DNA of 64,000 nucleotides from the NCBI RefSeq assembly GCF_025685625.1, contig NZ_JAGSYI010000001.1, forward strand, positions 2,046,001 to 2,110,000, read 5' to 3'. This DNA is from Acidicapsa acidisoli (GTDB taxonomy: Bacteria > Acidobacteriota > Terriglobia > Terriglobales > Acidobacteriaceae). The translations under genes were made by a program, and so were the position numbers. Below, one piece after another: positions 15,145 through 58,013 of the stretch; the stretch's first letter is position 1, and each line of letters opens with the position of its first letter. Below the pieces are notes generated by a model. That model saw nothing but the letters and a program-made list of their open reading frames with translations, ran no database searches and was not told where the DNA came from.

Positions 15145-15156
15145 GAAAACCTCCAT

Positions 15157-36131: not shown

Positions 36132-36252
36132 GCGATTTCTCAGCTCGGAAGTTTTTGGCGAGACACAGCGGGCTGGCAGGAGCAGAATATTCCAGGGCGC
36201 ACTTATTGCGCCCTCAAAATCCCCAAGGGTCCTATTAAGTTATTGATTTGAT

Positions 36253-39927: not shown

Positions 39928-40638
39928 ATGCCAACGATTGCGTTTGTGTGTCCAAAGGGTGGTGTGGGCAAGACCACCTCTGCGCTCCTGTGCGCCACGG
40001 CTCTAGCCACACTCTATGACGTCACAATCATTGACGCCGATCCAAACTATCCGATTCAAGATTGGGCAGCCGGTGGAAATGTTCCGCGCCGCTTATCCGT
40101 AGTGACGGAAGTCGACGAGGACACGATCATCGATGCGATCGAGGATGCGGCTTCGAAAACGCCGTTCGTGCTTATCGATCTGGAAGGAACGGCCGCGAAG
40201 ATCGTCGTATACGCGATTTCGCTCGCGGATTTTGTCGTGATTCCGCTCAGCGGATCGGATCTAGATGCAAAAGCGGCAAGCCGGGCGGTGCGCGTCGTGC
40301 TGCAAAGTGAGAAGCTGTCGGGAAAGCGTAAGCCCTATGCGGTTCTCTTCACGCAAACCAAGCAGACAGCGCGCTCACGGATTCTCACGAATATCCAGAA
40401 CAATCTCATCGACCACGGCATTCCGATGTTCGAAACCGAGCTGAACGACCGTGATGCCTTCAAGGCAATTATCTCTTTCCAGCAGACGCTCGATGGTCTC
40501 AACCCATCGGAAGTGCCGAATATCGAAAAGGCGAAACTCAACGTTTGGGAATTTATGGAGGAACTTGTACGGCGGCTTAAGGCCGAGCAGGACCGTGACA
40601 GAGTAACTGTGTCAACCAATGGAGAAGGGCCAGCATGA
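39928..40638 (+). CDS. parA: ParA-family partition ATPase
   Basis: A 236-residue deviant Walker ATPase: [20 protein letters not shown] at residues 8-27 with the signature lysine, [15 protein letters not shown] (A' box), [20 protein letters not shown] (Walker B). It belongs to the short ParA group without an N-terminal DNA-binding domain. It forms dynamic patches on the nucleoid to position plasmids. A strong ribosome binding site (cggaggaggaagg) precedes the ATG. Its stop overlaps the start of a small partner gene (ATGA). Confidence 0.92.
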
Positions 40639-44400: not shown

Positions 44401-44562
44401 GCGCGCGGCTAGGTCGCCGAGAATGCCGATGGACAGTCGGAATAGGCGCCCTGGGTCTTGCGGGACCATGATGTGGTCGGCTAACGGCACGTCGTATTCG
44501 AACATCTTGGCCTTCGACCGCGTGATGCCAAGCAGTGTGTGCGATCTCTGTTCAGGCTTCAT
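41446..44562 (-). CDS. hamB: HamB-like superfamily 2 helicase (Hachiman)
   Basis: 1038 residues. The helicase core has motif I MPTSAGKT (264-271), motif II DEGH (368-371), motif III near LISAVISNAEA, motif V in STLAQGVNLPIRYLIVTSV and motif VI HNLIGRAGRAG, as in Ski2-like helicases. A long helical C-terminal region follows. It directly follows hamA with an 11-base overlap. In Hachiman, the helicase HamB holds and senses DNA and releases the nuclease HamA upon phage damage. The annotation rests on the helicase type plus the DUF1837 partner. Confidence 0.85.
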   Translation of the reverse strand: MKPEQRSHTLLGITRSKAKMFEYDVPLADHIMVPQDPGRLFRLSIGILGDLAARGAAADNGSGTDTRNDLQFSARFFDAYMEARFDQSLDPYVTLLGAASFYLCDFPGSALVLGRRVGTQTTDLGGEGLEDLLRWLLLGDFSLPISGGERVFGTTIGEISDLLRQYFAEGQGGDALLARCDGLRQSAYATGTPRQLLLADIVRSVVRKKFANSSWHAVPEYTALSRDLWASALQKRTFMRELWPAQHLLGRSGVLRGRSAVVQMPTSAGKTRAAELIIRSAFLADRTSFAVIIAPFRALCHEIKNSFAAAFRGEPVTVDELTDVPQMDFLFEDEEETRQILVVTPEKFVYVLRHAPELAQRIGVLIFDEGHQFDSGTRGITYELLLTSLKSMVRVDAQKVLISAVISNAEAVGEWLNGTDSEIVSGITLSPTFRTVAFASWLDTLGRLEFVAPGEPDTQEFYVPRVVEQLPLLRLPREKERLFPERTDGKDVALFLGLKLVKNGAVAIFCGRKDTAANLCGRAVGIFERNVELAPPSSMSDPDETARLVYLLAANVGPNAFSTRSAGLGIFSHHGNTPHGIRLAVEHAMREGTIRFVICTSTLAQGVNLPIRYLIVTSVYQGVERIKVRDFHNLIGRAGRAGMHTEGSILFADPNVYDKRYDLDERWRWRQVKELLDPGKSEPCISTLLSFFDPFKSDDAKYTLQLDAMDFLRRYLQSQDAFSELAQSVSTAHADKKFTRQGMDKQIAWKLNIIGAIESFLMSHWDAGEIPLSTDAILALARGTLAYHLAGDDDKARIESLFTTIAENIESKIVDPERRRSFGKTLYGIFTSEEIEAWLTSHIEVLLAAAPAPTMLLEFIWPLLSKYIPNETFQKCSKPDALRVAAQAWISGRSYADLFQMLRAAEAQLIWGTKFRDYTIEHIVEIFENGLSYDGALLIGAITELIGFAGSDPDGQLIEMLGLLQKMLKYGLPTPAAIALYELGFADRAVVSELCTTLGLVDEHRGEVRERLRDDPDAVRATLQKFPSYFTHIFDQAL

Positions 44563-45442
44563 GCGCGGCCCTCTGATAGAGACTGTGAACCAGCGGCATC
44601 ATGTCAGCGCCCCGTACCACAATCAGAGCCAACGAATCGTGATTGGGATGGGGCTTAAAGCCGTTTTCGCTCTTCGTGCAGGGTACTTTCTGGCAATCGG
44701 CGGCGCTGATTGCCGTGGATTGGAACTGGTCGGTTGAATACAGCGCCGCCGCGCCGAAGAGCTGACGACACGGAAAGTCTACCGGATTCTGAAAGCGCTC
44801 CACCTGCTTCGCCTGATCTGTCTGCCCCTTCTCGAACAGGCGCTGCTTGATGTAATTGAGGGATTCGTCGATGCGGATGTGATCTTTCGCCGAGTCATTG
44901 ATCGCGTCCTGAAGGCGGTTCGCGGTAGAACCTGACGAGAATTTTGTCTTGGATTCGAAAACGGCGAGGGTGTCCTCGGGCGATGCGGCGGCAGGATTTT
45001 GCATGCGGAAGCCGATAACATCGCTTCCTTTCGACGACTCATCCCGGACCATCTTGGCGTTCCAGCGGAAACGCGGCACCCAATATCCCAGACGCCAGTG
45101 CAAATAATCGGCGATCAGGATCTCGCCGAAATCGCCGGCGCGAACACTTGGCCCCAAGGCTGAAGTCCGGGATGGAAACTTTATGTCCTCAAGATACTGC
45201 TGGCGCGTCCGTGGCGCGCGCAAGGCATCGATGTCGCTATCGAGGCAATAGTGATTGCGAAAATGTGTGGCCCACGCGGACAAGATTGTTTCGTCCGCCA
45301 AGTGACGGAGTTCCCAGACCTCGATCATTTTCCCATCGGCGGTCGTTAAACGCTCGCCGGTGTCGACCAGCCAGTCCAGATGGGGCGGTTTGGTTGCTGC
45401 AGAATGCGTGGAGCCTGCAGCGACTGCGGGCGTGGTGGACAT
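44552..45442 (-). CDS. hamA: HamA-like nuclease, DUF1837 (Hachiman)
   Basis: 296 residues. A PD-(D/E)XK nuclease set is visible: E107 in RAGDFGEILIADYLHW, D141 in SKGSDVIGFRM, and E163-S-K165 in LAVFESKTKFSSGSTANRL. This spacing and the segment order match the DUF1837/HamA family. It is the first gene of the operon. HamA is an unspecific DNase held inactive by HamB until infection. Catalytic residues are intact. An inverted repeat 40 bases upstream may regulate it. Confidence 0.83.
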   Translation of the reverse strand: MSTTPAVAAGSTHSAATKPPHLDWLVDTGERLTTADGKMIEVWELRHLADETILSAWATHFRNHYCLDSDIDALRAPRTRQQYLEDIKFPSRTSALGPSVRAGDFGEILIADYLHWRLGYWVPRFRWNAKMVRDESSKGSDVIGFRMQNPAAASPEDTLAVFESKTKFSSGSTANRLQDAINDSAKDHIRIDESLNYIKQRLFEKGQTDQAKQVERFQNPVDFPCRQLFGAAALYSTDQFQSTAISAADCQKVPCTKSENGFKPHPNHDSLALIVVRGADMMPLVHSLYQRAAHEA

Positions 45443-45480
45443 ATTGGGTCCCGGTACTTCTAATTAGGTTTGCGAAGTCA

Positions 45481-45504
45481 GGATGCATCATAATCGATGC
45501 ATCC
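45481..45504. promoter_or_regulatory. Inverted repeat upstream of hamA
   Basis: GGATGCAT at 45481-45488 pairs with ATGCATCC at 45497-45504 around an 8-base spacer. It lies about 40 bases upstream of hamA and could bind a repressor. Confidence 0.5.
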
Positions 45505-45551
45505 GCCATCTTCGCAAGATTCCGAAAGGACCCAAGCAGGCGTGCAGAGAA

Positions 45552-45579
45552 GCCCGCGCCGGGCTACGCCGGCGCGGGC
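45552..45579 (-). terminator. Terminator of the DUF6876 gene
   Basis: Stem gcccgcgcc (45552-45560) with ggcgcgggc (45571-45579), followed on the minus strand by ttctct. It lies 8 bases after the stop codon. The tail is only moderately T-rich. Confidence 0.6.
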
Positions 45580-45586
45580 CTCACTT

Positions 45587-45955
45587 TCAATACTCGGACG
45601 GTAGGAGAAGAGTGTTGTCGGTGAAATAGAACTGGATTTCAGCGAGCGGGAAGTCGGTGAACTCGATTTCCTTCGTGAAAACGAGATTGCCGTTGCCATC
45701 CTCGCAGGCCAGCGTGGCGGCGCGGTCGGCCCGAACCAAGAGTTTCCAGACCTGGAACGGTTCGGCTGCGACTTTCTTGTCGTAAGGCTGGATGAGCGCG
45801 ATTTCATCGATGAGCCAATAGGCGCCGCCATTCTCGGCGACGTACTGCACGCCTTCGGTATAGAGGACCTTGCGATTGATCGGATGCCGGAACCAGGTTT
45901 CGGTGCCTGTGAATTGCCGGAGATCGTCGGCGGTGAGTGTTTTCGTGTTCGACAT
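45587..45955 (-). CDS. DUF6876 family protein
   Basis: 122 residues: LTADDLRQFTGTETWFRHPI, VLYTEGVQYVAENGGAYWLI and DEIALIQPYDKK, then EIEFTDFPLAEIQFYFTDNT. This is the DUF6876 pattern, a protein carried by many proteobacterial plasmids and integrative elements with no known function. The start at 45955 was chosen because a conserved leader ends exactly there. The open frame further upstream is the translated leader and not protein. It is one of three genes here with the same leader hairpins. Confidence 0.82.
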   Translation of the reverse strand: MSNTKTLTADDLRQFTGTETWFRHPINRKVLYTEGVQYVAENGGAYWLIDEIALIQPYDKKVAAEPFQVWKLLVRADRAATLACEDGNGNLVFTKEIEFTDFPLAEIQFYFTDNTLLLPSEY

Positions 45956-46130
45956 ATGCGCCTCTTTCGGTTGAAGTGCCCCGTCGGCGGGGATGAGAGA
46001 GGCACAGGGCCGGCGCAACCGAGCGCGGCTGTCATAGCTTGTTGGGGGAACCGTGCCCGCAGGGCAGGGGGGAGCCAAGAAGCGTCATTGACGGCAAGCG
46101 GCGGCGGTCATCGTGCCGATTCCCGCCGTG
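45956..46130 (-). promoter_or_regulatory. Conserved structured leader, copy A
   Basis: In the minus sense: conserved 35-base block (46072-46108), variable hairpin tgccc/gggca (46054-46066), conserved ctatgacagccgcgctcggt block, then a hairpin enclosing the ribosome binding site. The outer stem pairs 45998-46005 with 45958-45965 (agagg side holds the binding site), the inner stem 979-983 with 988-992 (of 45xxx). Copies B and C keep both stems with different bases or lengths. Confidence 0.78.
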
Positions 46131-46309
46131 CCGGGGCCTGCGAAAGGGCCTGATAATGCGAAGAGAAGCTCCAACGACGAAGGCGGTCATGGAATGTTCG
46201 GCAGCTTCCGGACAGGGACAGGCTCGATGGCTGGGGGTTATTTGAAGACGGTTGAGACCAATCGCCGGGGTGTCCTACGCTCGTGTCATCTGATGCGAAG
46301 GAGAACGTT

Positions 46310-47479
46310 ATGACGATGCAATCGAGACCGGCGGAGCAAGAATTCGTCGAAGAAGTTACCGAAGCGCTGCAAAATAATCTGGGCGAAGATGTCCAATTTC
46401 GGATTTTCGATCCGCAGATTTGCGGGTCGTTCCAGCGGGACTGGCTGGCTGCCGCCTTGGAGGGGCAAGGCGTCGACGGCGCCGAACTCGACTGGATCCT
46501 GGATCAAGGTCTCTTGAGGCGCTCGAAGGCACCCTCGGGCGAAGAGGGTTTCATCCTCTACACCGAGCGGATGGCGGTTCTGGCCAAGAATCTCTGGGAT
46601 ACCGGGCGATACTCGGTGGATGAGCTCCGCCACATCTTCGATGACTGGTATGTCCGCGTGGAGATTATCTCGACGGAGCATCTAGCGTATGACAGCTTCG
46701 ACGTGGACGATTATGACCATTTCCGCCGGCGCGCCGCCGAAATGATCGAGATCTCCGAGCACAGTCTCTTTGGCCTTGCTGAGAACAATCCGTCCTGGAC
46801 GCCGGAAGTGCTGGCGGAACGGACGCGGGATGCGGAAACAAAAGTCTCCCGGTGGCGCTGGATTCATGGGCTGGTGTCGAATGACGCGGATGCCATCCTC
46901 GCTCCTTCTGTTCGAAAGCTCTGGCGCAAGCAGCTTTTTCAGCTGCGCTGGCTGGATGAGTGGTGCCGCATCATGCAGATCGGCGAATTCGAAACCCTGA
47001 TAACGGACGGTTACAGCCCCGAGGTCACTTTTTACGGCACGCGTTGGGAGAATGGAAAAACGACGCTGACCAATCTGAACTGGTCCAGCACCCTTGACCG
47101 GTTCAGAGAAACCCTCAACGAAGGCGGAGCCTTTCCGCTCCGGACGCCGGGCTTCAACGTCACGGCGCAGGGACTGACATTCACGCGCCACCCTTCGCCG
47201 GAGGAATATCAGGCAATTTTCGAGAAGGAACGTCTCGATCAGCTCTTCGGAGAACTCGAGAGACGGGGACCGGGCTATTGGACCTGCGATCTGGAAGCCT
47301 CGGGCCGCGGACAGTGCGCCGAGTGCAAGGCGATCTTCGAACGCACCACATCATCCCGAAAGTATTGCAGTGAACGCTGCAGCAGCAGAGCCAAAAGCCG
47401 CCGCTGGCGAGAAGCCAATCCGGAACGTGCGCGCGAGTCCCAAGCGAAGTATTACCGCGAGAATTATCCGGAAGAATAA
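46310..47479 (+). CDS. Unknown protein with C-terminal zinc-ribbon
   Basis: 389 residues from ATG 46310, which has aaggaga upstream (the frame opens at 46283 without such a site). The main part is unrecognised and mostly helical, tryptophan-rich (AKVSRWRWIHGLVSNDADAI-like). The C-terminus holds a zinc-binding cluster CAECKAIFERTTSSRKYC and ERC, followed by a basic tail (SRAKSRRWREANPERARESQ), resembling small zinc fingers of DNA- or RNA-binding proteins. It stands alone, convergent with the ParB-like gene, on the defence-rich element. Confidence 0.6.
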   Translation: MTMQSRPAEQEFVEEVTEALQNNLGEDVQFRIFDPQICGSFQRDWLAAALEGQGVDGAELDWILDQGLLRRSKAPSGEEGFILYTERMAVLAKNLWDTGRYSVDELRHIFDDWYVRVEIISTEHLAYDSFDVDDYDHFRRRAAEMIEISEHSLFGLAENNPSWTPEVLAERTRDAETKVSRWRWIHGLVSNDADAILAPSVRKLWRKQLFQLRWLDEWCRIMQIGEFETLITDGYSPEVTFYGTRWENGKTTLTNLNWSSTLDRFRETLNEGGAFPLRTPGFNVTAQGLTFTRHPSPEEYQAIFEKERLDQLFGELERRGPGYWTCDLEASGRGQCAECKAIFERTTSSRKYCSERCSSRAKSRRWREANPERARESQAKYYRENYPEE

Positions 47480-47529
47480 GTCAGGAAAGTGCGACAGCCC
47501 CGCGAACGAGGCTGCCGCGATACTGCACG

Positions 47530-49386
47530 TTATTCCGCCGCGATGGACTCCAGGGCTGGCTGAGGTTGCGGCAAACGCAACATCGCCGGAATCCAGCGGA
47601 CCTTCGCGGCTTCGCGTTCGGCAAGGCTCGCCAGTTCGGTCTTCTTCATCGCAGTCCATGCCGGAGCAACGGCGCCCTTGATCTCCTCAAGGTTGCCGAT
47701 GATCGTCGCTTTGCTTGCCCGGCCAAAGTAGTTCGCGCCGGTCGGCGAGAACCACAGGGCCATGTCGAGGTTGAGCAGCGCCGCGAGTGTCTCGGATTGC
47801 GCCATTCGCGGCGACGAAGAGCGCGTGTCTTTGCTCTGCACCGCATTCACCGTCTGCGCCACGCAGAAGGTAAGTAAGCCCTGAAGGGTAGCGACACTCT
47901 GCATGAAACACCAGCCAAGAAGAGCCTCGCTATCGGCCGGTAGACGCAACCGCCAAACCGCATGAGCGGACTCGATCGTGGCGTGAGCGGCCGAGCCTTC
48001 GACGCGATGGAACGACGCGGTTCGCGGTGTGATCTGCAACAGGCCATCATCGTGCGGCCCGCTGTAGAACACCGGGAGCGCAAGCCGTTCGACCAGCAGG
48101 GCAAGCGCGGCTTCCGGATGGTCAAGCAACGCAGCGCTGAGCGCGGCGGAACGCTGTGCCGTGAGGCTTTCGACCAGTGACACGGGCAGCGGGGATGCTC
48201 CGTCGCCGCTATTCTCGGTCACGTCAGGCGCACCTGCCTCGCGCCGGGATGTTTTTCGGGGCGCATCTTCGGGGCGAACGAGACCGTAATGCAGTTCGGC
48301 CTTGCCGTCTCGGCCAAGCGTGACGACCACGCCGGCGATCCCGAGAGTTTCGGGTGACCACACGGTTTCACGATCACCCAGTTCGGCGAGACGTTCCTCG
48401 ACAGCATCGAGGCGCGTCACCTGGCCTTCATCCAGATCCTCGAGGGCCCAAAGCTCCTCGCGTTCGACGAGCAGCGCGTCGTATTCCGACTGCTCTTCCG
48501 GTGAGAAGGGTGTGGGCTCGGGGTGAAAGCGCTGGCATTTCGACCATGCGTCGTGATCGAAGATGGCCTCGATCTCGACCCACCTCCAGCCCTGCTTGCG
48601 GACAGCTGCTGCGACTGAATCAAGCTTCTTTGCGACCAAGCTTTCGAGCAGCACGGCGTCATCGATGAAAACGCCGTCGTCGCCCTCGCTAAAGAGATCG
48701 CGGCGTACCGTACCTCCGGCCTTCTCATAAGCCTTGACGGAGACGAACCGCACGCGGGGATCGGCGCCAGTGATCTCACCTTCGGTGAGCATGTCCCGGA
48801 TCGCATCGGGATTGCCGCGCTTCCATGCGGCAACCTCACGCCAGACACGCTCCTGCGCCGCATGATCGTCTGTCACGGCGAAGGCCATGATGTGCTGCAG
48901 CGTCATCTTGCCCCTGCGGTAGGCGGCGACGAGCTTCGGGCTCACATGGGCAAGCTTCATACGCTGCTTGACGACGGTCTCCGTTACGCCGAAACGCGCG
49001 GCGACATCGGCGGGCGGCGTACCGCTTTCGATCAGCGCTTTGAACGCCTCGAATTCGTCGGCGGGATGCATGGCCTCCCGCTGGACGTTTTCGGCGAGGC
49101 TGATCTCGGTAGCGTCGGTGTCGAGACCGATGACGTTGCACGGCACCGGGTAGTCGGCTTCGAGCGTGCCGGCATCGGCAAGCGATTGGAGCGCAAGAAG
49201 CCTGCGGCCTCCGGCGACAACGGCGTATTTGTCGCGCTTGTCCTTTCGCACGACGAGCGATTGCAGAAGGCCATGTGCTGAAATCGATGCGGCCAGTTCA
49301 TCGATGTTCTTGTCGGACTCCGTCTTGCGGACATTGCCGCCCCAGGCGAGGAGCTTGTTGAGGGATATGGTCGTGGTCGTTGTCAT
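47530..49386 (-). CDS. ParB/RepB/Spo0J-like protein
   Basis: 618 residues. The N-terminal ParB domain contains LNKLLAWGGNVRKTESDKNI, HGLLQSLVVRKDKRDKYAVV, AGGRRLLALQSLADAG and ISLAENVQREAMHPADEFEA. The KorB/HTH part follows with PADVAARFGVTETVVKQRMK, then a long acidic and variable region to residue 618. It is unrelated in its C-terminus to the broken parB at 5.5-15.4 kb. It lies far from parA and belongs to the large plasmid ParB-like group that may regulate transcription or conjugation. Start 49386 coincides with the end of the conserved leader. Confidence 0.87.
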   Translation of the reverse strand: MTTTTTISLNKLLAWGGNVRKTESDKNIDELAASISAHGLLQSLVVRKDKRDKYAVVAGGRRLLALQSLADAGTLEADYPVPCNVIGLDTDATEISLAENVQREAMHPADEFEAFKALIESGTPPADVAARFGVTETVVKQRMKLAHVSPKLVAAYRRGKMTLQHIMAFAVTDDHAAQERVWREVAAWKRGNPDAIRDMLTEGEITGADPRVRFVSVKAYEKAGGTVRRDLFSEGDDGVFIDDAVLLESLVAKKLDSVAAAVRKQGWRWVEIEAIFDHDAWSKCQRFHPEPTPFSPEEQSEYDALLVEREELWALEDLDEGQVTRLDAVEERLAELGDRETVWSPETLGIAGVVVTLGRDGKAELHYGLVRPEDAPRKTSRREAGAPDVTENSGDGASPLPVSLVESLTAQRSAALSAALLDHPEAALALLVERLALPVFYSGPHDDGLLQITPRTASFHRVEGSAAHATIESAHAVWRLRLPADSEALLGWCFMQSVATLQGLLTFCVAQTVNAVQSKDTRSSSPRMAQSETLAALLNLDMALWFSPTGANYFGRASKATIIGNLEEIKGAVAPAWTAMKKTELASLAEREAAKVRWIPAMLRLPQPQPALESIAAE

Positions 49387-49556
49387 GATGTGCCTCTCTT
49401 GTTGAAGTGACCCCCACGGCGGGGGCGAGAGAGGCACGTCCTGCCGGCGCAACCGAGCGCGGCTGTCATAGCTTGTTGGGGGAACCGTGCCCCTCGCGAA
49501 AGCGGGGGCAGGGGGGAGCCAAGAAGCGTCATTGACAGCAAGCGGCGGCGGCTAGA
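49387..49556 (-). promoter_or_regulatory. Conserved structured leader, copy B
   Basis: The outer stem is perfect: 49390-49399 with 49428-49437 (gtgcctctct / agagaggcac). The arm next to the ATG holds the ribosome binding site. The inner stem is 49411-49415 with 49421-49425. The upstream hairpin is longest here (49488-49493 with 49505-49510, plus cgc/gcg and a gaaa loop), so stem length varies while the pairing is kept. Blocks shared with copies A and C: agctatgacagccgcgct, and the ggagccaag...gcaagcgg region. Confidence 0.8.
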
Positions 49557-49716
49557 GTGCCCTCGCCCTGCTGCTGAAGGGGTCACCGGGGAGAGGCCTA
49601 TGCTGGAGACGTCGAAATATCGCCAAGTGACGGATGTGCGCCGGAGACGATTAAGAAAAAATGGGTAGTTCTTCTTAACGGGTCCTGCCAAGGCGCGATG
49701 CGTCGAATAGGGGGCC

Positions 49717-49781
49717 TAATCTACGCAAATTTGCGTAGATTATCCTTGCCTTTGCGTCGATTAGCGGCTAGATTCGACGCA
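49717..49781. promoter_or_regulatory. Palindromic operator region upstream of fic
   Basis: A 26-bp perfect palindrome occupies 49717-49742 (half-site TAATCTACGCAAA). Directly downstream TGCGTCGA (49753-49760) is inverted at 49774-49781, ending two bases before the fic ATG. The same octamer occurs again at 49787. The Fic protein has a C-terminal winged helix, so it may bind here and repress itself. Confidence 0.8.
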
Positions 49782-49782
49782 G

Positions 49783-50910
49783 ATGGTGCGTCGAAAAAGG
49801 GCAGGGACCTACATCCACGAGCAAGCAGGCTGGCCAGGCTTTCGCTGGGACCATGATCGGATTTCTGCGCGTCTCATCGATGTGCGGCACCGCCAGGGGC
49901 TCCTGATCGGCCAGATGAAAGGGCTTGGATTCCAGTTGAGGACGGAAGCTGTCCTCAACACGCTCACGGAAGATGTCCTGAAATCGAGCGAGATCGAGGG
50001 CGAAGTGCTCGATCGCGATCAGGTGCGCTCCTCGATCGCGCGCCGCCTCGGGCTGGACATTGGCGGGCTGGTGCCGGCCGATCGGAATGTCGAGGGCGTT
50101 GTCGAGATGATGCTCGATGCGACGCAGCGTTACGCCGATCCGCTGACAGGCCGGCGTCTCTTCGGCTGGCACGCGGCCTTGTTCCCGACCGGCCATAGCG
50201 GGATATCGAAGATCAGGGTAGGGGCCTGGCGTGACGATGCGAAAGGCCCGATGCAGGTCGTCTCGGGACCCATTGGCAAGGAACGGGTTCACTACGAAGC
50301 TCCCGCGGCTGACCGTCTGCGTGACGAGATGAAGGCGTTTGTTGATTGGTTCGAGAAAGACCGCTCGACCGATCTTGTGCTCAAGGCCGGGGTTGCACAT
50401 CTCTGGTTCGTGACGATCCATCCATTCGACGACGGCAATGGGCGCATCGCGCGCGCGATTGCCGACATGGTGCTCGCCCGTTCGGAAGACACCTCGCAGC
50501 GTTTCTACAGCATGTCGGCGCAGATCCGGCAGGAACGCAAGGCCTATTACGACATCCTCGAAGCGACGCAGAAAGGCGATCTCGACATCACCCGCTGGCT
50601 CGAATGGTTCCTCGACTGCCTTGGCCGCGCCTTCGAGCGGTCCGAGACCGTCCTTGGGGCCGTCCTCGGCAAGACGCGGTTCTGGGAGCATTTTGCGAAG
50701 GTGGAATTCAACGAACGTCAACGCGCAGTGATCAACCGGCTGCTCAACGGCTTCGAGGGCAAGCTGACCTCGTCCAAATGGGCCAAACTCGCCAAGTGCT
50801 CGCACGATACAGCGCTGCGCGATATCGAAGACCTCATCCGGAAGAAAGTGCTGGTAAAAGACCCTGCGCGGGGCCGGAGTACGTCGTATTCTCTGGTACG
50901 AGTAAAGTGA
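49783..50910 (+). CDS. Fic-family AMP-transferase (DUF4172-Fic-wHTH)
   Basis: 375 residues. The catalytic motif is HPFDDGNGRIARA (H213 onward), complete. The N-terminal inhibitory helix carries S68-S-E-I-E72-G73, a class II inhibitory motif. The N-terminus resembles DUF4172. The C-terminus (SSKWAKLAKCSHDTALRDIE) is a winged helix. Fic enzymes transfer AMP to target proteins, here kept in check by the inhibitory helix. An overlapping operator suggests autoregulation. There is no Shine-Dalgarno before the ATG, so translation may be inefficient or leaderless. Confidence 0.9.
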   Translation: MVRRKRAGTYIHEQAGWPGFRWDHDRISARLIDVRHRQGLLIGQMKGLGFQLRTEAVLNTLTEDVLKSSEIEGEVLDRDQVRSSIARRLGLDIGGLVPADRNVEGVVEMMLDATQRYADPLTGRRLFGWHAALFPTGHSGISKIRVGAWRDDAKGPMQVVSGPIGKERVHYEAPAADRLRDEMKAFVDWFEKDRSTDLVLKAGVAHLWFVTIHPFDDGNGRIARAIADMVLARSEDTSQRFYSMSAQIRQERKAYYDILEATQKGDLDITRWLEWFLDCLGRAFERSETVLGAVLGKTRFWEHFAKVEFNERQRAVINRLLNGFEGKLTSSKWAKLAKCSHDTALRDIEDLIRKKVLVKDPARGRSTSYSLVRVK

Positions 50911-50949
50911 GAGGTTCGCTTTAGTCTGCTTTCAAAGCAATCTTATCGC

Positions 50950-51516
50950 CTAGTTTGAGTAACGGGAGCGGCTGTGCCGGATGCGCGCGCCGCTGCCGTT
51001 TATGCGCATTCGAAGCACAGGTAAACTGACTCCGTAATGCGTGGAGGCGGACTGTTCATCCATGCCCTGACGAACGATATGCAGGGCGGCTTCATCGGAG
51101 ATGAGGATCGCCGGCCCAAGCCAATTCGCCTCATCTTCAAGATCACGGTCATGGTTTCGGCAACCTGTGCTGTCGATCGGATATGTGAAAGGGTGGCCAA
51201 GCAGAATATGTGAGATTTCATGCGACAAATTGCTGCGCTGCCTAAGCGGATGGTGGGAATCATTATGGATAATGATGCGCTTTCCCGTATCGAACCGAAT
51301 AGTCGTCGCTGAAAAGGCTTCCGAATCGATGATGGAGAGTTGCTGAACAGCTTCGGGGCTTTCTTCGGCAAAGGCCGACAGTGGCGCGATCTCAATCTCA
51401 AGACGCGCCGCAATAATCTCCAGATCGATCGGCGCGTGCGGCAGGCAATCCTGCCCGCGTCGTAATCGCAGAGATAACCGGTTAGCGCTTGCTTTGAAAC
51501 CTCGCCTGAGGCTCAT
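50950..51516 (-). CDS. ImmA/IrrE-type metallopeptidase
   Basis: 188 residues. The zinc motif is H99-E100-xx-H103 in NLSHEISHILLGHPF, followed by an acidic helix (EDEANWLGPAILI) with the third ligand. N-terminal part: LPHAPIDLEIIAARLEIEIA. Such peptidases cut partner XRE repressors to release operons from repression. Its ATG overlaps the stop of the XRE gene (ATGA), so the two are coupled. The divergent neighbour is the ubiquitin-like operon. Confidence 0.9.
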   Translation of the reverse strand: MSLRRGFKASANRLSLRLRRGQDCLPHAPIDLEIIAARLEIEIAPLSAFAEESPEAVQQLSIIDSEAFSATTIRFDTGKRIIIHNDSHHPLRQRSNLSHEISHILLGHPFTYPIDSTGCRNHDRDLEDEANWLGPAILISDEAALHIVRQGMDEQSASTHYGVSLPVLRMRINGSGARIRHSRSRYSN

Positions 51517-51872
51517 TTTGCTGGCTCCTTAAATCGCTTATATGCGGCTTTCAGTATTTGTTCGATCGCCTCAGCGCTTGCCCGGCTCAGACTCTTGTCG
51601 GCGCGCAGTACCGCGGTGATTTGGGCGATCGGTTCTGCTTCTTTCTTTTTGGTTCCCTCCTTGGCCGCGATAAACATCTCCGCTTTAAGTCCCGACCACC
51701 GCAAGAGCGCCGCCAGTCCGTCAACATCCGGTCTCTTGCCTTGCGCCATCCGGGTTAGGGTGGATGCGCTTACACCTGATTCTTCGGCTACATCTTTCCA
51801 GGTCATTCCCATCGCCAATCGCTGACTATCGAGTGCCGCCCGGAACGCCTCGGTGTCGAAATTCTCTGTCAT
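51513..51872 (-). CDS. XRE-family repressor
   Basis: 119 residues. The helix-turn-helix is LAMGMTWKDVAEESGVSAST, then LTRMAQGKRPDVDGLAALLR. A C-terminal helix region follows. It is the first gene of the XRE-ImmA pair and should bind the dyad at 51892-51952 between it and the ubiquitin-like operon. Confidence 0.88.
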   Translation of the reverse strand: MTENFDTEAFRAALDSQRLAMGMTWKDVAEESGVSASTLTRMAQGKRPDVDGLAALLRWSGLKAEMFIAAKEGTKKKEAEPIAQITAVLRADKSLSRASAEAIEQILKAAYKRFKEPAK

Positions 51873-51891
51873 GCATTACCCCCCCCACGAA

Positions 51892-51952
51892 TTGCTAACT
51901 CGCAATCGCACACCACATGTGCAATTATGGTCTTGCGATTCGAGTTTAGCAA
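51892..51952. promoter_or_regulatory. Divergent operator between XRE gene and ubiquitin-like operon
   Basis: TTGCTAACTCGCAATCGCA (51892-51910) and the complement of 51934-51952 (TTGCTAAACTCGAATCGCA) form a long imperfect dyad. A further aatcgcaattg lies at 51964. This fits binding sites for the adjacent XRE repressor controlling both directions. Confidence 0.65.
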
Positions 51953-51985
51953 CCGCAGTTCTTAATCGCAATTGAGGAGACGAAA

Positions 51986-52285
51986 ATGGAACAAACTCAG
52001 TCATTCTCACACGAACCGCATGGCCATCCTCACCCGCATCATCATCCGCACCCCGAGCCGGTGAGATTCCATGTCAACGAAAAGCACGTCCACATGGAAG
52101 GCCACCATCACACCGGGCTTCGGATCAAAGAGGCCGCAAAGGCGCAAGGGGTCAAGATCGAGCTCGATTTTCTTCTGTACCTGGTACGCCACCACCAGCC
52201 CAACAAGCTGATCGGCGACGGCGAAGAAGTGCACCTTACGCACGAAAGCCGCTTTCACGCGATTGCGGATGACGACAATTCGTGA
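51986..52285 (+). CDS. Ubiquitin-like protein (Multi_ubiq type, one domain)
   Basis: 99 residues. A histidine-rich N-terminus (HGHPHPHHHPHPEP) precedes one beta-grasp domain: VRFHVNEKHVHMEGHHHTGL, RIKEAAKAQGVKIELDFLLY and LIGDGEEVHLTHESRFHAIA. This matches the multiubiquitin-domain family found in bacterial ubiquitin-like operons. There is one domain instead of several, and the C-terminus ends DDDNS, with no diglycine. In the family it would be activated by E1 and transferred by E2. Ribosome binding site gaggaga. Confidence 0.85.
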   Translation: MEQTQSFSHEPHGHPHPHHHPHPEPVRFHVNEKHVHMEGHHHTGLRIKEAAKAQGVKIELDFLLYLVRHHQPNKLIGDGEEVHLTHESRFHAIADDDNS

Positions 52286-52297
52286 GGGCTCCAGGCC

Positions 52298-52684
52298 ATG
52301 ACGCCAGAAGTGCAGGAAGCGATTAAGGAGATATCCGAGGCGTACCCGGACTGCCACCTGGAATCCGTTGACGACGGTCAAGGTGGCGCTGTCGTTACAG
52401 TGCAGAACATTCCCCTTGAGGGAGCGCTGTACCTGCAGACGCAAACCTGGGTCGGATTTCATATCACTCACACCTATCCGTATGCGGATGTCTACCCGCA
52501 TTTCGTGAGGCATGACTTGAGCCGGCGTGATGGGAAGGCGCTGGGGGAGGGCACGTCGATCGGCACCTTCCAGAAGACTCCGGCCGTGCAGATTTCCCGG
52601 CGCACGAACAAACTCGATCCAACTTCGCATACAGCGCTTCTCAAGCTGTGCAAGGTGCTACGATGGCTGACTTCTCGTCCATGA
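52298..52684 (+). CDS. E2-like protein of a bacterial ubiquitin-like system
   Basis: 128 residues, with the E2/UBC-family pattern of these operons: EAIKEISEAYPDCHLESVDD, VVTVQNIPLEGALYLQTQTW, ITHTYPYADVYPHFVRHDLS and TKL-like NKLDPTSHTALLKLCKVLRW. Cysteines occur only at C19 and in KLCKV near the C-terminus, not in the usual place after the YPHF strand. The catalytic mechanism is therefore open. The gene begins 12 bases after the ubiquitin-like gene, and its stop overlaps the next start (ATGA). Confidence 0.8.
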   Translation: MTPEVQEAIKEISEAYPDCHLESVDDGQGGAVVTVQNIPLEGALYLQTQTWVGFHITHTYPYADVYPHFVRHDLSRRDGKALGEGTSIGTFQKTPAVQISRRTNKLDPTSHTALLKLCKVLRWLTSRP

Positions 52685-54174
52685 AACGCCGTTATCGTCT
52701 GATTGTCCCCGATGATCTCTATCGCCGGCTGGATCATCATCTATTCCCCGGCGATCACGATGAGCACGGGGCCGTTATTGTCGCTGGAATAGCCGAGAGC
52801 AAATCCGAAGTGCGTTTGCTCGCGCGCGAGCTCTTTCTCGCGGCGGACGGCATTGACTACGTTCCCGGCAAGCGCGGCTACAGGATGCTCAAGGCCGGCT
52901 TCATCGCCGATCGCATTGCGATGTGCGGCACGGAAAGACTTGTTTATCTGGCGATTCACAACCACGGCGGTTGCGACTCCGTCCAGTTCTCATCCGATGA
53001 TCTGCGGTCGCATCAGCGGGGCTATCCGGCATTATTGGACATTGCGCGTGGTATGCCCGTGGGCGCCCTGGTGTTCGCGGAAAATGCCGTCGCTGGCAGC
53101 ATCTGGCTATCGGGTGATCGGCAAATTGAGCTTTCAGAGATCGTCGTTGTCGGTCGTTCCCGCCGCAGGCTTACGGCCGCGCCGACCCGGCAGGTGAGTC
53201 TCTCTTCGCCGGTGTATGACAGGCAGGCGCGGCTCTTTGGAGATTTGGGCCAAGCCATCCTGGGCCGGGCAAAGGTCGGAATCATCGGCCTGGGCGGAGC
53301 AGGTTCATTGATTGCGGAGTACCTCGGGCGTCTTGGGGTCGGATCATTTGTTCTGGTCGATCCGGATCGCGCCGAACTTTCGAATCTGCCGCGACTGACC
53401 GGCGCCTCTCGTTGGGACGCTCTAGGCTGGCTTGCGAGCGAGAAATCTCCGAAGTGGCTTCAACAAATTGCTTTCCGCCTTGCGAAGCCAAAGGTCCTGA
53501 TGGCGCGCCGGAATATCTTGCGCGCAAATCCAAGCGCAAAAGTCGAAACGATCATCGGCGATTTCCTTGAAGCGGATATTGCGGCTCGGTTCACCGATTG
53601 CGACTATCTGTTCCTGGCCGCAGACACCGCGCGCGCGAGGCTGCTGTTCAACGCAATCGTCCATCAGTATCTGATCCCCGGAGTTCAGGTCGGCGCGAAG
53701 GTCCAGGTCGATCGGAAAACGGGCGAGGTCACCGATGTCTTCAGCGTGGTCCGGCCGGTTACGCCCGAAAGCGGCTGCCTCCTATGCAACGGGCTGATCA
53801 ATGCGGCGAAGCTGCAGGAGGAGAGCATCTCCGAGCAGGAGAGGAGAGGGCAACGCTATGTCGATGACCCCGACGTTATTGCGCCGAGCGTTATCACATT
53901 AAATGCGGTAGCGGTTTCTCACGCCACAGACGACTTTCTGTTCTATATGACCGGCCTGCGCGACCCCAATGCTCCAACCTCGTTCATGAGGTTTCATCCA
54001 CGAGGTCGGCAGGTATGGTCGGACGAGCCTCGCAAGTCGCCATCCTGCCCGGAGTGCGGTCAGGGCCCACGAAGCCGTCTTGCGCGCGGCGATGCGCGCC
54101 GCCTTCCCGTCATTGAACGTACAAAGGTAAAGACAGCAGAGGCCACAGAATCTGGAATTCGGTTGCCGGCGTAA
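52681..54174 (+). CDS. JAB peptidase-E1 (ThiF) fusion
   Basis: 497 residues from ATG 52681, which overlaps the E2 stop (upstream starts at 52648/52663 are less likely). Residues about 1-150 form a JAB/JAMM domain with H93-N-H95 and S104/D107 (AIHNHGGCDSVQFSSDDLRS). Residues about 180-450 form a ThiF/E1 adenylation domain with VGIIGLGGAGSLIAEYLGRL, VDPDRAELSNLPR and C-terminal cysteines (SGCLLCNGLI, CPECGQG). It should adenylate the ubiquitin-like protein and, by the JAB domain, process or remove it. The same trio occurs in known bacterial ubiquitin-like loci. Confidence 0.88.
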   Translation: MKRRYRLIVPDDLYRRLDHHLFPGDHDEHGAVIVAGIAESKSEVRLLARELFLAADGIDYVPGKRGYRMLKAGFIADRIAMCGTERLVYLAIHNHGGCDSVQFSSDDLRSHQRGYPALLDIARGMPVGALVFAENAVAGSIWLSGDRQIELSEIVVVGRSRRRLTAAPTRQVSLSSPVYDRQARLFGDLGQAILGRAKVGIIGLGGAGSLIAEYLGRLGVGSFVLVDPDRAELSNLPRLTGASRWDALGWLASEKSPKWLQQIAFRLAKPKVLMARRNILRANPSAKVETIIGDFLEADIAARFTDCDYLFLAADTARARLLFNAIVHQYLIPGVQVGAKVQVDRKTGEVTDVFSVVRPVTPESGCLLCNGLINAAKLQEESISEQERRGQRYVDDPDVIAPSVITLNAVAVSHATDDFLFYMTGLRDPNAPTSFMRFHPRGRQVWSDEPRKSPSCPECGQGPRSRLARGDARRLPVIERTKVKTAEATESGIRLPA

Positions 54175-54231
54175 AGGTGTAGACGGTGGCGCCATCCAGC
54201 GCCATCTGACTGTGTTGCTAAATTGCGCGGT

Positions 54232-55197
54232 TTAGGAATCCGCGGCAGCCAGCGCTTCCCGCAGCTCCTTCTGAACCACCGTCGCATAACCCGGATGGAA
54301 CCCGAGAACCATGTCGGCAATACGCTGAGCATCCGCGGCGGCGCGGAAGATCTCGCGCTTGTCGTCCTTGAGTGCCTTGATCCAGCTGGCGATATAGCTG
54401 GCATGGTGCGGGATGTCCGTCGGAATGCCGATTTCATTTGCAACGAACGCCGAAGCCAGCTCGGCGCGAAGCTCTTCCATCGCGTAGGCAGCAGAACCAA
54501 AACGGTCCTGGAGATCGCGGTTAAGCCGCGTTGGATGCCCGGTCCAGTGCGCCAGCTCATGCAGTGCGGTTACCGCGAATCCCAACGGCCCGCTGAAGGC
54601 CTGTTCCGGAGGCATTTGAATGTGATCGGTCGACGGCGAGTAGAACGCGCGATCGCCGCCGATCCGGATGACAGCGCCGCTGTTGCGGAGGATGATGTCG
54701 GATGCTTCGGGCTTGGCCAACGGGGCCTCCTCGATCGTCGCAGCTTCATAAGCCGGAATACCGTCGATCTGCGACGCATGGAAAACGGCAAAGTGTCGGA
54801 GGACGCTGACGGTCTTGGTTTCCTCGTCGGAAGCCTCGTTTTCGACTTCGTAGGATTTCGCGAAGAAGATGGTGGTCGAGCGCTCGCCCTTCTTCACCTG
54901 CCAGTCTTTGCCTTGCGCCTGCTGGTAGGTCATCCAGCGCGGATCGCCAGTCTGGAAGGCGCGCATGTCCATGCCGAGAATCAGGACATTGATGCCGTGA
55001 TACCGCTTTCCGGTCACAGGATTGAAGGGCGCCTGCGGGCCGCCGGCTTTCTCCGGGTCCCACGGGCGGACCCACGGTTTCACGCCGCGCTCAAGCTCGG
55101 CGATGATGCGGTTTGCGAATTCCTGCATCGGATCGCGGGCAGGGCCGCTCTCCGGGCGACGCGCGTGCCTGCTTCTGTTCGAAAGCGGTTTCGTCAT
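54232..55197 (-). CDS. ardC: ArdC-like antirestriction protein
   Basis: 321 residues. An N-terminal ssDNA-binding ArdC domain (MQEFANRIIAELERGVKPWV, RPWDPEKAGGPQAPFN, KRYHGINVLILG) is joined to a zincin-like metallopeptidase domain with H213-E-L-A-H217 (TALHELAHWTGHPTRL) and the glutamate in MEELRAELASAF. ArdC proteins protect incoming plasmid DNA against host restriction during conjugation. The start 55197 lies just after the third copy of the conserved leader. Confidence 0.9.
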   Translation of the reverse strand: MTKPLSNRSRHARRPESGPARDPMQEFANRIIAELERGVKPWVRPWDPEKAGGPQAPFNPVTGKRYHGINVLILGMDMRAFQTGDPRWMTYQQAQGKDWQVKKGERSTTIFFAKSYEVENEASDEETKTVSVLRHFAVFHASQIDGIPAYEAATIEEAPLAKPEASDIILRNSGAVIRIGGDRAFYSPSTDHIQMPPEQAFSGPLGFAVTALHELAHWTGHPTRLNRDLQDRFGSAAYAMEELRAELASAFVANEIGIPTDIPHHASYIASWIKALKDDKREIFRAAADAQRIADMVLGFHPGYATVVQKELREALAAADS

Positions 55198-55372
55198 GGT
55201 GTGCCTCTTTCCGTTTGAATTGCCCCCATCGGCGGGGGTGGAAGAGGCACAGGAGCCGGCGCAACCAAGCGCGGCTGTCATAGCTTTTTGGGGGGACCGG
55301 CCCAAAGGGCAGGGGGAGCCAAAACAGCGTCATTGACGGCAAGCGGCGACGGCCAGAGTGCCGATACCCCGC
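55198..55372 (-). promoter_or_regulatory. Conserved structured leader, copy C
   Basis: Outer stem 55201-55209 with 55242-55250 (gtgcctctt / aagaggcac), extended by cc/gg, again with the ribosome binding site in the arm near the ATG. Inner stem 55223-55227 with 55234-55238. Upstream hairpin gccc/gggc (55300-55310). The conserved blocks are as in copies A and B, and changes at 55210-55212 versus 55240-55241 keep pairing. Confidence 0.8.
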
Positions 55373-55706
55373 CATGTGAGGGGCAGCAGGAAAGAGGTCA
55401 TGATGCAAAACGCTTTGGTAACGGATCGCGGCTTCGCTGGTAGCGGGCGGCAGTGTAACAATACTGATGCATCCGACTGCAGAGTTAGAGCCGTCGTCGA
55501 GCGGCGACGGGGCAGCTATCCGCCGGCAACGGAAGGAGCTGAAATCGTGGCTCGCATGGCTATTCATGCGCATGTTGTGGGGCGCCGAGTTACGTTCTAT
55601 CTTCCGGGATTAGCTCGCTAATTTGCCCCGGCGCGCGGTTGACCGAGCAGCAGGCTGAGTTCGGCGGAAGGCGAAGTGCAAGACAAACACGGAGTGGTGA
55701 CAAAGA
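55373..55706. other. Divergent region, possible small ORF
   Basis: The plus strand holds an open frame from ATG 55400 to 55621 (MQNALVTDRGFAGSGRQCNN, 73-74 residues) with aaagagg upstream. No family or homologue pattern is recognised, so it is only a possible gene. The promoter of hsdM must lie near its end. Confidence 0.3.
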
Positions 55707-58010
55707 GTGGATCAAGCGACGCATAACAAAATTGTTTCCTTTATCTGGGGCATTGCCGACGACGTTCTCCGCGATCTCTTCAAGCGCGGGAAATACCCCG
55801 ACGTGATCCTGCCGATGTGCGTCATTCGACGGATGGACGCCGTTCTTGAGCCGACAAAACAGGCAGTCCTCGATACCAAGGAGATGCTAGACAACGCAGC
55901 CATCACGGAACAACGGGCGGCTCTCTGCGAAGCATCCGGCCAGGCGTTCTACAACACATCGAAATTCACGCTGCGCGACCTGAAGTCGCGAGGGAGTCAG
56001 CAGCAGCTGTTAGCCGACTTTGAGGATTACCTGAACGGCTTTTCATCGAACGTCCAGGACATTCTGGATAACTTCAAATTCCGGAATCAGCTTCCGACGC
56101 TCTCGAAAGCCGACGCTATTGGCACATTGATCAATAAGTTTCTTGATCCCGATATCGATCTCTCGCCGACAGGAATCGACAACCACTCGATGGGGACCGT
56201 CTTTGAAGAACTGGTCCGCAAGTTCAATGAAGAAAACAATGAAGAAGCCGGTCAGCACTGGACGCCTCGCGATGCAATTTCCTTGATGGCCAACCTTGTT
56301 TTTCTTCCTGTAGAGCCGCAGTTGCGGTCAGGGACTTACTTGCTTTACGACTGTGCCTGTGGAACGGGCGGCATGCTTACCGTTGCGGAAGAGAGGCTTA
56401 AACGGATTGGCCTAAAGCACAATCGCGACGTCCGAGCCGTACTTTACGGGCAGGAAATCAACCCCGAGACCTACGCCGTTTGCAAAGCTGACATGCTGCT
56501 CAAAGGCGAAGGCGAAGTGGCAGATCACATCGTCGGCGGTGCGGAGTGGTCGACGCTTGCGCACGACGCGTTTCCTGCACAGGAATTCGATTTCATGCTC
56601 GCGAACCCGCCTTACGGAAAGAGCTGGAAGAAGGATCTTGAAGCGATGGGCGGCAAGGATGGCTTGCGCGATCCCCGTTTCAAGGTAATGCACGAAGGCG
56701 AAGAGCTTTCTCTTGTTACGCGCTCCAGCGATGGGCAGATGCTGTTCCTCGCGAATATGGCGTCGAAGATGAACCCCAAATCGGCCCTCGGCAGCCGTAT
56801 TGCCGAGGTTCACAACGGCTCGTCCTTGTTCACGGGCGACGCGGGCCAGGGGGAAAGCAATATCCGACGCTGGCTGATTGAGAATGATTGGGTCGAAGCC
56901 ATCGTCGCCTTGCCGCTCAATCTCTTTTACAACACGGGTATTGCGACCTATATCTGGGTCCTGTCCAATCGCAAGCCCGCGCATCGCGCCGGGCAAATTC
57001 AACTCATCGACGGCTCCGAATGGTTCAAGCCATTGCGCAAAAACCTCGGCAAGAAAAACTGCGAGCTCTCGGGCGACGATATCGAACGCATCAGCCGGGT
57101 CTTCCAGGAATTCACGGAAACGCCTCAGTCAAAGATTTTTCCGAACCAGGCCTTCGGCTATTGGAAGGTGACGGTCGAGCGGCCGTTGCGCCTGCATAGC
57201 CAGCTCACGCTGAAAGCAATCGAAAAACTGCGGTTTGCCTCGGGTGACGAGGACTTGCGTTCAACGCTTTATGACGAGTTCGGTGACGATCTTTTTGCTG
57301 ACTTCTCAAAAATCGAAGCCCAGCTTGAAACGCGCCTAGCCGACTGGGGCAGTGACGATGAGGAGGCGGCGGACGACGACGAAGAGAACGGAAAAAAGAA
57401 AGGCCTGCCGGAAAAGAAAAAAAAGAAGATGCTCGATCCGAAGACGTGGGAACGCGACGGCCGGTTGGTCGAAGTGGCCACGGCACTGCGTAAGAAGCTC
57501 GGGGAAGCCGTCTTCGACGATCACAATATATTCCGTGATCGCGTCGATGAGGCGCTCAAGGAAGATGACACGAAACTCTCGGCCGCCGATCTCAAACTAA
57601 TCCTCAAAACGGTGAGCTGGCGCGTTGAGACGGCGCCGCCGGTCATCGCAAAGATACACAAAACCGGCAAAGTCGGCGCTGATCCTCTCCGCGGGTTGTT
57701 CGAGGCAAGTATTGCGGGGAAGAAGGCGACGGTCGAATATGAGCCCGATTCCGATTTGCGGGACACCGAGCAGGTGCCGCTTCTCGAAGACGGCGGAATC
57801 GAAGCCTTCATCCGCCGTGAAGTGCTGCCCTACACGCCCGACGCCTGGATCAAGGAAAGCGCAACCAAGATCGGCTACGAAATCAGCTTTACGCGGCATT
57901 TCTACAAACCGCAGCCGATGCGGTCACTTCAGGAAATCAGTGCCGATATTGTGGCTATTGAGAAGGAGTCCGAGGGACTTCTCGACGGCCTGTTGATTGG
58001 GGGCAAGTAG
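55707..58010 (+). CDS. hsdM: Type I restriction-modification methyltransferase HsdM
   Basis: 767 residues from GTG 55707. An N-terminal HsdM_N domain (SFIWGIADDVLRDLFKRGKY) is followed by N6_Mtase. The SAM motif is in YDCACGTGGMLTVAEER, the catalytic motif in DFMLANPPYGKSWKKD. An acidic/lysine-rich linker (DDDEENGKKKGLPEKKKK) leads to a C-terminal extension. It methylates adenine in the target read by HsdS and protects host DNA. First gene of a four-gene operon. Length is in the range of the long HsdM group. Confidence 0.93.
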   Translation: MDQATHNKIVSFIWGIADDVLRDLFKRGKYPDVILPMCVIRRMDAVLEPTKQAVLDTKEMLDNAAITEQRAALCEASGQAFYNTSKFTLRDLKSRGSQQQLLADFEDYLNGFSSNVQDILDNFKFRNQLPTLSKADAIGTLINKFLDPDIDLSPTGIDNHSMGTVFEELVRKFNEENNEEAGQHWTPRDAISLMANLVFLPVEPQLRSGTYLLYDCACGTGGMLTVAEERLKRIGLKHNRDVRAVLYGQEINPETYAVCKADMLLKGEGEVADHIVGGAEWSTLAHDAFPAQEFDFMLANPPYGKSWKKDLEAMGGKDGLRDPRFKVMHEGEELSLVTRSSDGQMLFLANMASKMNPKSALGSRIAEVHNGSSLFTGDAGQGESNIRRWLIENDWVEAIVALPLNLFYNTGIATYIWVLSNRKPAHRAGQIQLIDGSEWFKPLRKNLGKKNCELSGDDIERISRVFQEFTETPQSKIFPNQAFGYWKVTVERPLRLHSQLTLKAIEKLRFASGDEDLRSTLYDEFGDDLFADFSKIEAQLETRLADWGSDDEEAADDDEENGKKKGLPEKKKKKMLDPKTWERDGRLVEVATALRKKLGEAVFDDHNIFRDRVDEALKEDDTKLSAADLKLILKTVSWRVETAPPVIAKIHKTGKVGADPLRGLFEASIAGKKATVEYEPDSDLRDTEQVPLLEDGGIEAFIRREVLPYTPDAWIKESATKIGYEISFTRHFYKPQPMRSLQEISADIVAIEKESEGLLDGLLIGGK

Positions 58011-58013
58011 GCC

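Follow-up and report, generated by a model that had tools for sequence, protein, structure and literature searches.

Promoters that act in single-stranded DNA are proven on the plasmids F and ColIb-P9 and are predicted by similarity elsewhere, according to three papers (PMC11541004, PMC9849209, PMC8708921). On F, the gene cluster behind Frpo2 (ssb, yfjA, yfjB, psiB, psiA) is reported to be expressed early in recipients, and ssb and yfjA were tested by deletion of Frpo2 (PMC9849209). Samuel et al. reported that leading regions widely contain Frpo-like promoters; neither ArdC nor Acidobact is mentioned in the main text of that article (PMC11541004). In another described system, EGeRS1 of the pLS20 plasmid family, repeated leaders rich in inverted repeats lie right before the ribosome-binding site of ardC and of other establishment operons (PMC8708921). 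Here we describe a leader that resembles these systems and is repeated three times in a 55.1-kb integrated element of Acidicapsa acidisoli (assembly GCF_025685625.1). The analysis was carried out on a stretch of 64,000 nucleotides (nt) of contig NZ_JAGSYI010000001.1 (positions 2,046,001 to 2,110,000 of the forward strand), hereafter the window, whose first letter is position 1. We assign a probability of roughly 0.6 to the reading that each leader acts as a promoter in single-stranded DNA, like Frpo/ssi, and is placed before establishment genes of a transferable element. The carrier genome is Acidobacteriaceae-like and not proteobacterial; an earlier note made from the letters of this DNA had pointed to proteobacterial plasmids and integrative elements for searches.

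The leader and the Frpo/ssi regions of F and ColIb-P9 have several traits in common. Both are long palindromes located directly before leading-region genes (F has two copies in one orientation), in both the antisense strand folds better, and they share gene families such as a ParB-like protein and anti-restriction genes. The ParB-like protein behind copy 2 showed 32% identity over ~630 columns (E 2e-69) with a protein of F whose gene lies between ssb and psiB and which, given this position, is presumably the product of one of the yfj genes. The leader differs in being shorter (~200-240 nt, versus ~300 in F), in showing in its class I copies −35 and −10 boxes at 15-nt spacing, in holding the ribosome-binding site inside the hairpin, and in its occurrence in Acidobacteriota. 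Compared by description rather than by sequence, EGeRS1 is longer (420-750 bp) and belongs to Bacillus plasmids; its transferred strand is reported not to be the template, whereas that of the leader is the inferred template in eight of nine Ti-type plasmids (PMC8708921 for EGeRS1).

The three copies, which the earlier note had placed upstream of DUF6876, ParB-like and ArdC genes on the minus strand, were confirmed (Table 1), with start codons read from the sequence at 45955, 49386 and 55197, respectively. An exact 18-mer core occurs three times in the window, against 0.08 occurrences expected even when up to three mismatches are allowed. The copies are 80-85% similar in pairwise comparisons, and this similarity starts 150-180 nt 5' of the ATG and stops just past it. 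The unit proved to be longer than first proposed, since an additional left arm pairs with the ribosome-binding site (CTCTTTC with GAAAGAG in copy 3; in copies 1 and 2 the site has the same position). A second hairpin of variable length, described earlier as a separate element, does exist and corresponds to the apex of one long hairpin. Likewise, the stems that had been drawn separately merge into this single hairpin in the consensus of 22 copies, although single copies, such as copy 1 and L080, adopt other folds when taken alone.

A covariance model (R1) gave 36 matches on 23 retrieved stretches. These represent 32 leader copies, given that three matches fall on a copy's opposite strand and two are halves of one copy. 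Twenty-two copies are full-length members of class I; this set excludes broken or truncated copies (L017, L082:14118, L006:7605, L076:2268, L094), L093, and the diverged L086, L087, L088 and L092. In species genomes, the exact 18-mer was found in 14 stretches, 11 of which contain the leader, all in Acidobacteriota, while three are unrelated. Further copies came from whole-genome searches of eight of these genomes and from scanning 397 genomes of the order with a pattern; the latter gave matches in 15 genomes, of which, by reading, ten are leaders (the own genome included) and five look like chance. The own genome contains additional copies at C1:1717604 (5' half lost) and C1:1722113, and a strongly diverged one at C1:371371. 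At the level of the phylum, and leaving the own genome aside, a DNA search that scored few candidates per genome gave two weak matches in 297 genomes, the model, with the same limitation, matched in 1 of 396 genomes, and the pattern in none of 396. No match was obtained in phages, viral contigs or E. coli genomes (queried variously with copy 3, the 18-mer or copy 1), nor in a plasmid search with copy 1. Among the titles and abstract openings listed by a literature search, in which subscription literature was little covered, there was no earlier description of the family. The location at gene starts noted for the three copies extends to the family: in 30 of the 32 model matches, the last three letters are an ATG with an open frame behind it, which in L094 is probably accidental, although this placement is partly built in because R1 itself ends in ATG. 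The genes behind the leaders encode DUF6876 (seven, all Pfam-confirmed), ArdC (four, two by profile and two by reading), ParB-like proteins (three, two by profile and one by reading), DUF3768, DUF6878, DUF736 and a DNA methylase; the remainder are small genes without a recognised family.

The leader is a genuine structured family maintained by compensatory changes. In the 22 full-length copies, the consensus is a near-palindrome of ~200 nt that forms one long hairpin on either strand (RNAalifold with ribosum scoring), and the 52 pairs common to the consensus folds of both strands are paired in 90.3% of cells. Eleven of these pairs changed on both sides, compared with a mean of 6.2 in shuffles, none of 500 of which reached 11, and with 3-5 in slid versions of the fold. 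For instance, at columns 88/153 and 89/152, C-G and U-A are replaced by G-C and A-U, in four sequences each. The long hairpin of the alignment (A4) depends on the scoring: it was obtained with ribosum scoring (−98.8 kcal/mol) and not with the default settings of RNAalifold (−23.2 kcal/mol). The compensatory pairing described in the earlier note is supported.

A covarying fold of this kind before start codons could also represent a cis-regulatory RNA leader, in which the sense transcript would hide the ribosome-binding site until it is opened by a factor, an RNase or a ligand. RNA tolerates G.U pairs; if the antisense DNA is what folds, this tolerance shows up in the sense strand as A.C. Among the 52 shared pairs, read on the sense strand, A.C exceeded G.T both in cells (37 vs 22) and in column types (20 vs 11), which is the opposite of the expectation for a sense RNA. 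In agreement with this, the comparison against dinucleotide shuffles favoured the antisense strand, with RNA parameters in 20 of 27 (mean +0.69) and with DNA parameters in 19 of 27 copies (mean +0.73); within class I it was favoured in 17 of 22 (mean +0.61). As controls, the Frpo/ssi stretches gave +2.46, with the antisense strand favoured in four of four, whereas RNase P gave −1.40 (one of ten; 10 of 15 loci used) and cobalamin −0.49 (4 of 15; 15 of 26 matches used).

On the antisense strand of the 5' arm, the best sigma70 site, scored with a simple home-made matrix, is the same one in 22 of 22 copies and has the form TTGA(C/T)-N15-xAnnGT, the −10 box being mostly TAAAGT or TAGAGT. In 21 copies, no more than 2% of 100 mononucleotide shuffles attained its score, and in the remaining one 7% did. 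The TTGA, the A at −11, the G at −8 and the T at −7 are invariant in all 22, and the invariant −11 A is located in an internal loop whose opposite side varies in sequence and length. In duplex DNA these boxes point away from the gene, and no gene was recognised on that side. On the sense strand, the same matrix found no promoter below 0.05 by shuffles within 150 nt 5' of the unit in any of the 22 copies, the best sites being reached by 7-100% of shuffles. The reading of the sense RNA as the functional fold is therefore disfavoured by the excess of A.C, by the better folding of the antisense strand and by the absence of a detectable upstream promoter.

Leaders that, through intermediate copies, seem to be related to class I are also present on plasmids. 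The copies L086-L088 are intermediates, in which the class I stem GTCAATGACG...CTATGAC is joined to another apex, ATTTTCCCC-hairpin-TTCCTCGCG..AAAAT. A search with this diverged core gave 96 plasmid records, the matches spanning 21-34% of the query; those inspected were two Tn4371-like elements and one Ruegeria plasmid. A longer, rhizobial form matches 202 plasmid records, and in 10 of 16 plasmid records inspected a DUF736 gene lies directly behind the leader. As to orientation, copies agree in seven of seven stretches with several copies, and the leader and the relaxase gene are co-oriented in all six Acidobacteriota neighbourhoods that have both within ~31 kb. These six are the element itself, a second locus of the same genome, G497, G560, G399 and G674, the relaxase match of the last being barely above the cut-off. 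On plasmids, co-orientation was observed in 13 of the 14 records that show a relaxase; two of these records are the same element. A nick motif that we take to be that of Ti-type plasmids was found near traC-traA in nine of nine of them, 3.4-18 kb from the leader, and the transferred strand deduced from it is antisense to the leader in eight. The order on these plasmids is the origin of transfer (oriT), traCDG, and then leaders pointing to oriT, with the exception of pTi_Tun198; in one of the nine, pTiS4, no annotated gene lies directly behind the leader.

Taken as a single-stranded promoter, the leader would work as follows. The transferred strand, antisense to the leader genes, would enter the recipient, where the palindrome would fold into one long hairpin. 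The stem of this hairpin would rebuild a sigma70-like promoter, which comprises an A-rich apical stem followed by TTGAc and, after a spacer of 15 nt, by TAnAGT in the unpaired internal loop, and from which the host RNA polymerase could read outward into the DUF6876, ParB-like or ardC gene before second-strand synthesis. Protective genes, the anti-restriction gene among them, would in this way be the first to be expressed. In duplex DNA, the arms would instead pair with their own complements, leaving the boxes facing away from the gene. Transcription of the single strand, its start point and the translational gating considered below are all proposed for the leader. In this respect, the shared early-expression signal postulated in the earlier note is plausible and probably right, although its acting form is probably single-stranded DNA and not a switching RNA.

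The transcript may be gated as well. RNA synthesis is predicted to start near alignment column 200, just before CCCCCGCC, and the two stretches able to cover the ribosome-binding site (the far-left arm, and a CTCTTTC before the last small hairpin) would both lie upstream of this point. For this reason, an RNA started in the hairpin should leave the site freer, while a read-through RNA should keep it shut. The mean unpaired probability of the site was 0.53 (range 0.21-0.99) from the predicted start and 0.09 in the full read-through RNA, in a computation that mis-picked the site in L077; with a start 11 columns earlier, the mean was 0.08. The hiding of the site claimed in the earlier note is predicted, but it is better understood as a brake on the translation of read-through RNA than as a switch, and the palindrome may combine a promoter active only in single strands with such a brake. 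A similar arrangement is found in the end repeats of insertion sequences such as IS10 and IS50, where read-through RNA hides the ribosome-binding site and internally started RNA does not; the leader differs from them in that its promoter is proposed only in single-stranded DNA.

Among the alternatives, the cis-regulatory RNA leader survives best, and even so we regard it as unlikely. Apart from the covarying fold before start codons, it accommodates the concealment of the ribosome-binding site in the full-length RNA, the small conserved hairpin adjoining the start codon, and the pairing between the site and the far-left arm, which is preserved with different letters in L087, L092 and L089-L091. 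The leader shares the covarying fold and the concealed ribosome-binding site with RNA leaders of the kind collected in Rfam. However, besides the pairing pattern, the poorer folding of the sense strand and the missing upstream promoter already mentioned, an RNA would leave the conserved boxes and the invariant loop base without a role and the orientation to the relaxase and the nick motif unexplained. No Rfam family was found at its gathering score at the three leaders, nor any match there at E up to 5; at five further leader loci, the only match was below threshold and outside the leader. It is less probable still that the hairpin of the transferred strand has another job, such as a priming site for the second strand or a binding site for a co-entering protein, the position before genes being secondary. 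The evidence on strand and orientation applies equally to this possibility, the rhizobial relatives show no visible promoter boxes, and Frpo itself also primes (PMC7736820), but the placement at start codons and the conserved class I boxes point to gene expression. A mobile palindrome or recombination site, like a miniature inverted-repeat transposable element or attC, spread before genes by recombination, would agree with copies before unrelated genes being similar only inside the unit, with a 5'-truncated copy abutting a gene for a tyrosine recombinase, the domain of which breaks off at profile position 86 of 172, and with the recombinase trios or IS110 genes near some rhizobial copies, but it is very improbable in view of the fixed distance to the start codon, the single orientation per element, the conserved boxes and ribosome-binding site, and the lack of an integron-type array in the stretches read, attC boxes not having been searched for.

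Several observations weigh against the leader being a single-stranded promoter. With respect to the boxes, the pattern that retrieved L077 and L089-L091, which make up four of the 22 copies, contains the complement of TTGAC, so that the conservation of the −35, though not that of the −10, is partly built in; the 15-nt spacer is short; and the home-made matrix detected no promoter at the matching place in Frpo1 or Frpo2 of F, and is thus unvalidated on a known case. In addition, by reading, the −10 is missing from L086, L088 and L092, which are diverged copies of Acidobacteriota, and no consistent box site was found in 15 rhizobial loci, which were loosely anchored. As to the strand, when all 60 pairs of either fold are counted, A.C and G.T are nearly balanced (64 vs 58, 22 of the latter coming from one invariant pair), and the plain z-score favours the antisense strand in 17 of 27 copies with RNA parameters (20 of 27 with DNA parameters). 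The asymmetry is weaker than in Frpo, and in the rhizobial copies, where the anchor is ~30-50 nt off in about 5 of 15, it is near zero (+0.16, antisense favoured in 10 of 15). The copies are mutually related, and the counts of strands and boxes are consequently not independent trials. Regarding transfer, one copy of pTi_Tun198, beside an IS110 gene, has the wrong orientation, and the presumed oriT region of the A. acidisoli element contains one motif of what we assume to be the MOBP nick type, on the unfavourable strand, with ~1 expected by chance. The ribosome-binding site is only partly free from the predicted start, as the range given above indicates. Finally, R1 gave no match at E up to 1 on the F and ColIb-P9 stretches, which limits the claim to a leader that works like Frpo, without implying descent, and it does not recover the rhizobial copies, so that what connects them to class I is the short shared core together with the intermediate copies.

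On the basis of these relatives, we tentatively entertain, as a broader and rather doubtful proposal, a family of single-stranded promoters across phyla (Acidobacteriota, Rhizobiales including Ti plasmids, and gammaproteobacterial Tn4371-like elements), in which one palindrome would act as a switch with two layers, allowing transcription of the entering strand only and blocking translation of any read-through RNA. The rhizobial and Ti-plasmid copies near oriT are probable relatives of the leader. If the single-stranded promoter is correct, early expression from entering single strands would be suggested as a general way to establish conjugative DNA. The leader would also offer a sequence handle for establishment and anti-defence genes, with DUF6876, DUF6878, DUF3768 and DUF736 as candidates, and the pattern of G.U versus A.C changes becomes testable as a discriminator between single-stranded DNA elements and RNAs.

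Table 1. Leader copies and other features of the element in the window.
Feature	Position	Strand	Remarks
Left attachment repeat	36251-36297	.	47 bp identical to 91365-91411 (window numbering), the latter in overlap with a tRNA-Met gene at its 3' end
Replication initiator protein A	38428-39504	+	PF10134, E 5.7e-79
ParA/VirC1-like partition ATPase	39928-40638	+	Gene of the element
DUF6876 gene behind copy 1	45587-45955	-	PF21781, E 7e-47
Leader copy 1	45956-46150	-	Earlier extent 45956-46130 plus left arm 46142-46150; ends at DUF6876 start codon
Promoter-like boxes, copy 1 arm	46088-46114	+ (antisense)	TTGACG-N15-CATCGT
ParB-like gene behind copy 2	47530-49386	-	ParB_N E 1.4e-10, HTH_ParB
Leader copy 2	49387-49596	-	Left arm 49591-49596; ends at ParB-like start codon
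Promoter-like boxes, copy 2 arm	49532-49558	+ (antisense)	TTGACA-N15-TAGAGT
ArdC anti-restriction gene behind copy 3	54232-55197	-	ArdcN E 1.2e-34, MPTase-PolyVal (zincin-like peptidase) E 3.4e-50
Leader copy 3	55198-55397	-	Left arm CCTCTTTCC 55389-55397; ends at ArdC start codon
Ribosome-binding site GAAAGAGG, copy 3	55204-55211	-	Paired with left arm in long hairpin
Promoter-like boxes, copy 3 arm	55333-55359	+ (antisense)	TTGACG-N15-CAGAGT

The carrier element is bounded by identical 47-bp repeats, at 36251 and 91365 in window numbering, and a contig of Silvibacterium bohemicum shows the same gene order over the part examined. In the same numbering, a MobA/VirD2 relaxase gene is located at ~78.9-80.7 kb (minus strand), a TraG-type coupling protein gene at 85.8-87.3 kb (plus strand) and the integrase gene at 90.2-91.4 kb (plus strand). 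Since the relaxase and coupling protein genes diverge, oriT probably lies between them. With oriT at this place, the order in the circular form would be oriT, coupling protein, integrase, attachment site, replication and partition genes, and leaders, and the leaders would be ~16-26 kb from oriT and point toward it.

Two further explanations of the conserved segments were considered and rejected. Upstream open reading frames do not account for them, given that the three copies have no conserved frame in common. A divergent gene on the left arm was suggested by an ATG past a mirrored GAAAGAGG in several copies, but the frames are mostly short and no gene was recognised. The open reading frame listed at 45478-46035 is in another frame than the DUF6876 gene.

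Some copies of the family are incomplete. In L006:6979-7764, a leader without its 5' half is joined to the truncated end of a gene for a tyrosine recombinase, of whose profile positions 2-86 of 172 are matched, a junction that hints at a breakpoint inside the palindrome. In L094:7202-7363 and L017:1248-1393, the left half is intact, the right half is lost and the usual gene behind is absent. Recombinase genes also accompany some of the plasmid copies: in pTiS4 (L099:18480-22947), three tyrosine recombinase genes lie between inverted copies of the DUF736 gene, a similar trio is present in L104, and IS110 genes are found near the leaders in L099, L100 and L101.

The element carries additional cargo. 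In a Hachiman-like defence pair adjoining the DUF6876 copy (41446-45442, minus strand), a HamA-like gene precedes a gene for a large DEAD-box helicase, and genes for an HsdM-type methylase and a GmrSD-type protein (55707-59810, plus strand) lie on the strand opposite the leaders. Beyond the end of the window, at 67605-77363 in its numbering (L108:5605-15363), there are genes for HlyD, a peptidase-C39 ABC transporter and RTX-repeat proteins. A match to the SAM-II (SAM_alpha) riboswitch at 51603-51706 (plus strand) reached 27.3 bits, against a gathering score of 36, and overlaps a helix-turn-helix gene on the opposite strand; it is probably due to chance. Lastly, a tRNA-like match of 33.6 bits at 16266-16331 (plus strand), not called by ARAGORN, lies ~1 kb from an integrase gene (13882-15195) and is possibly the remnant of another integration site.

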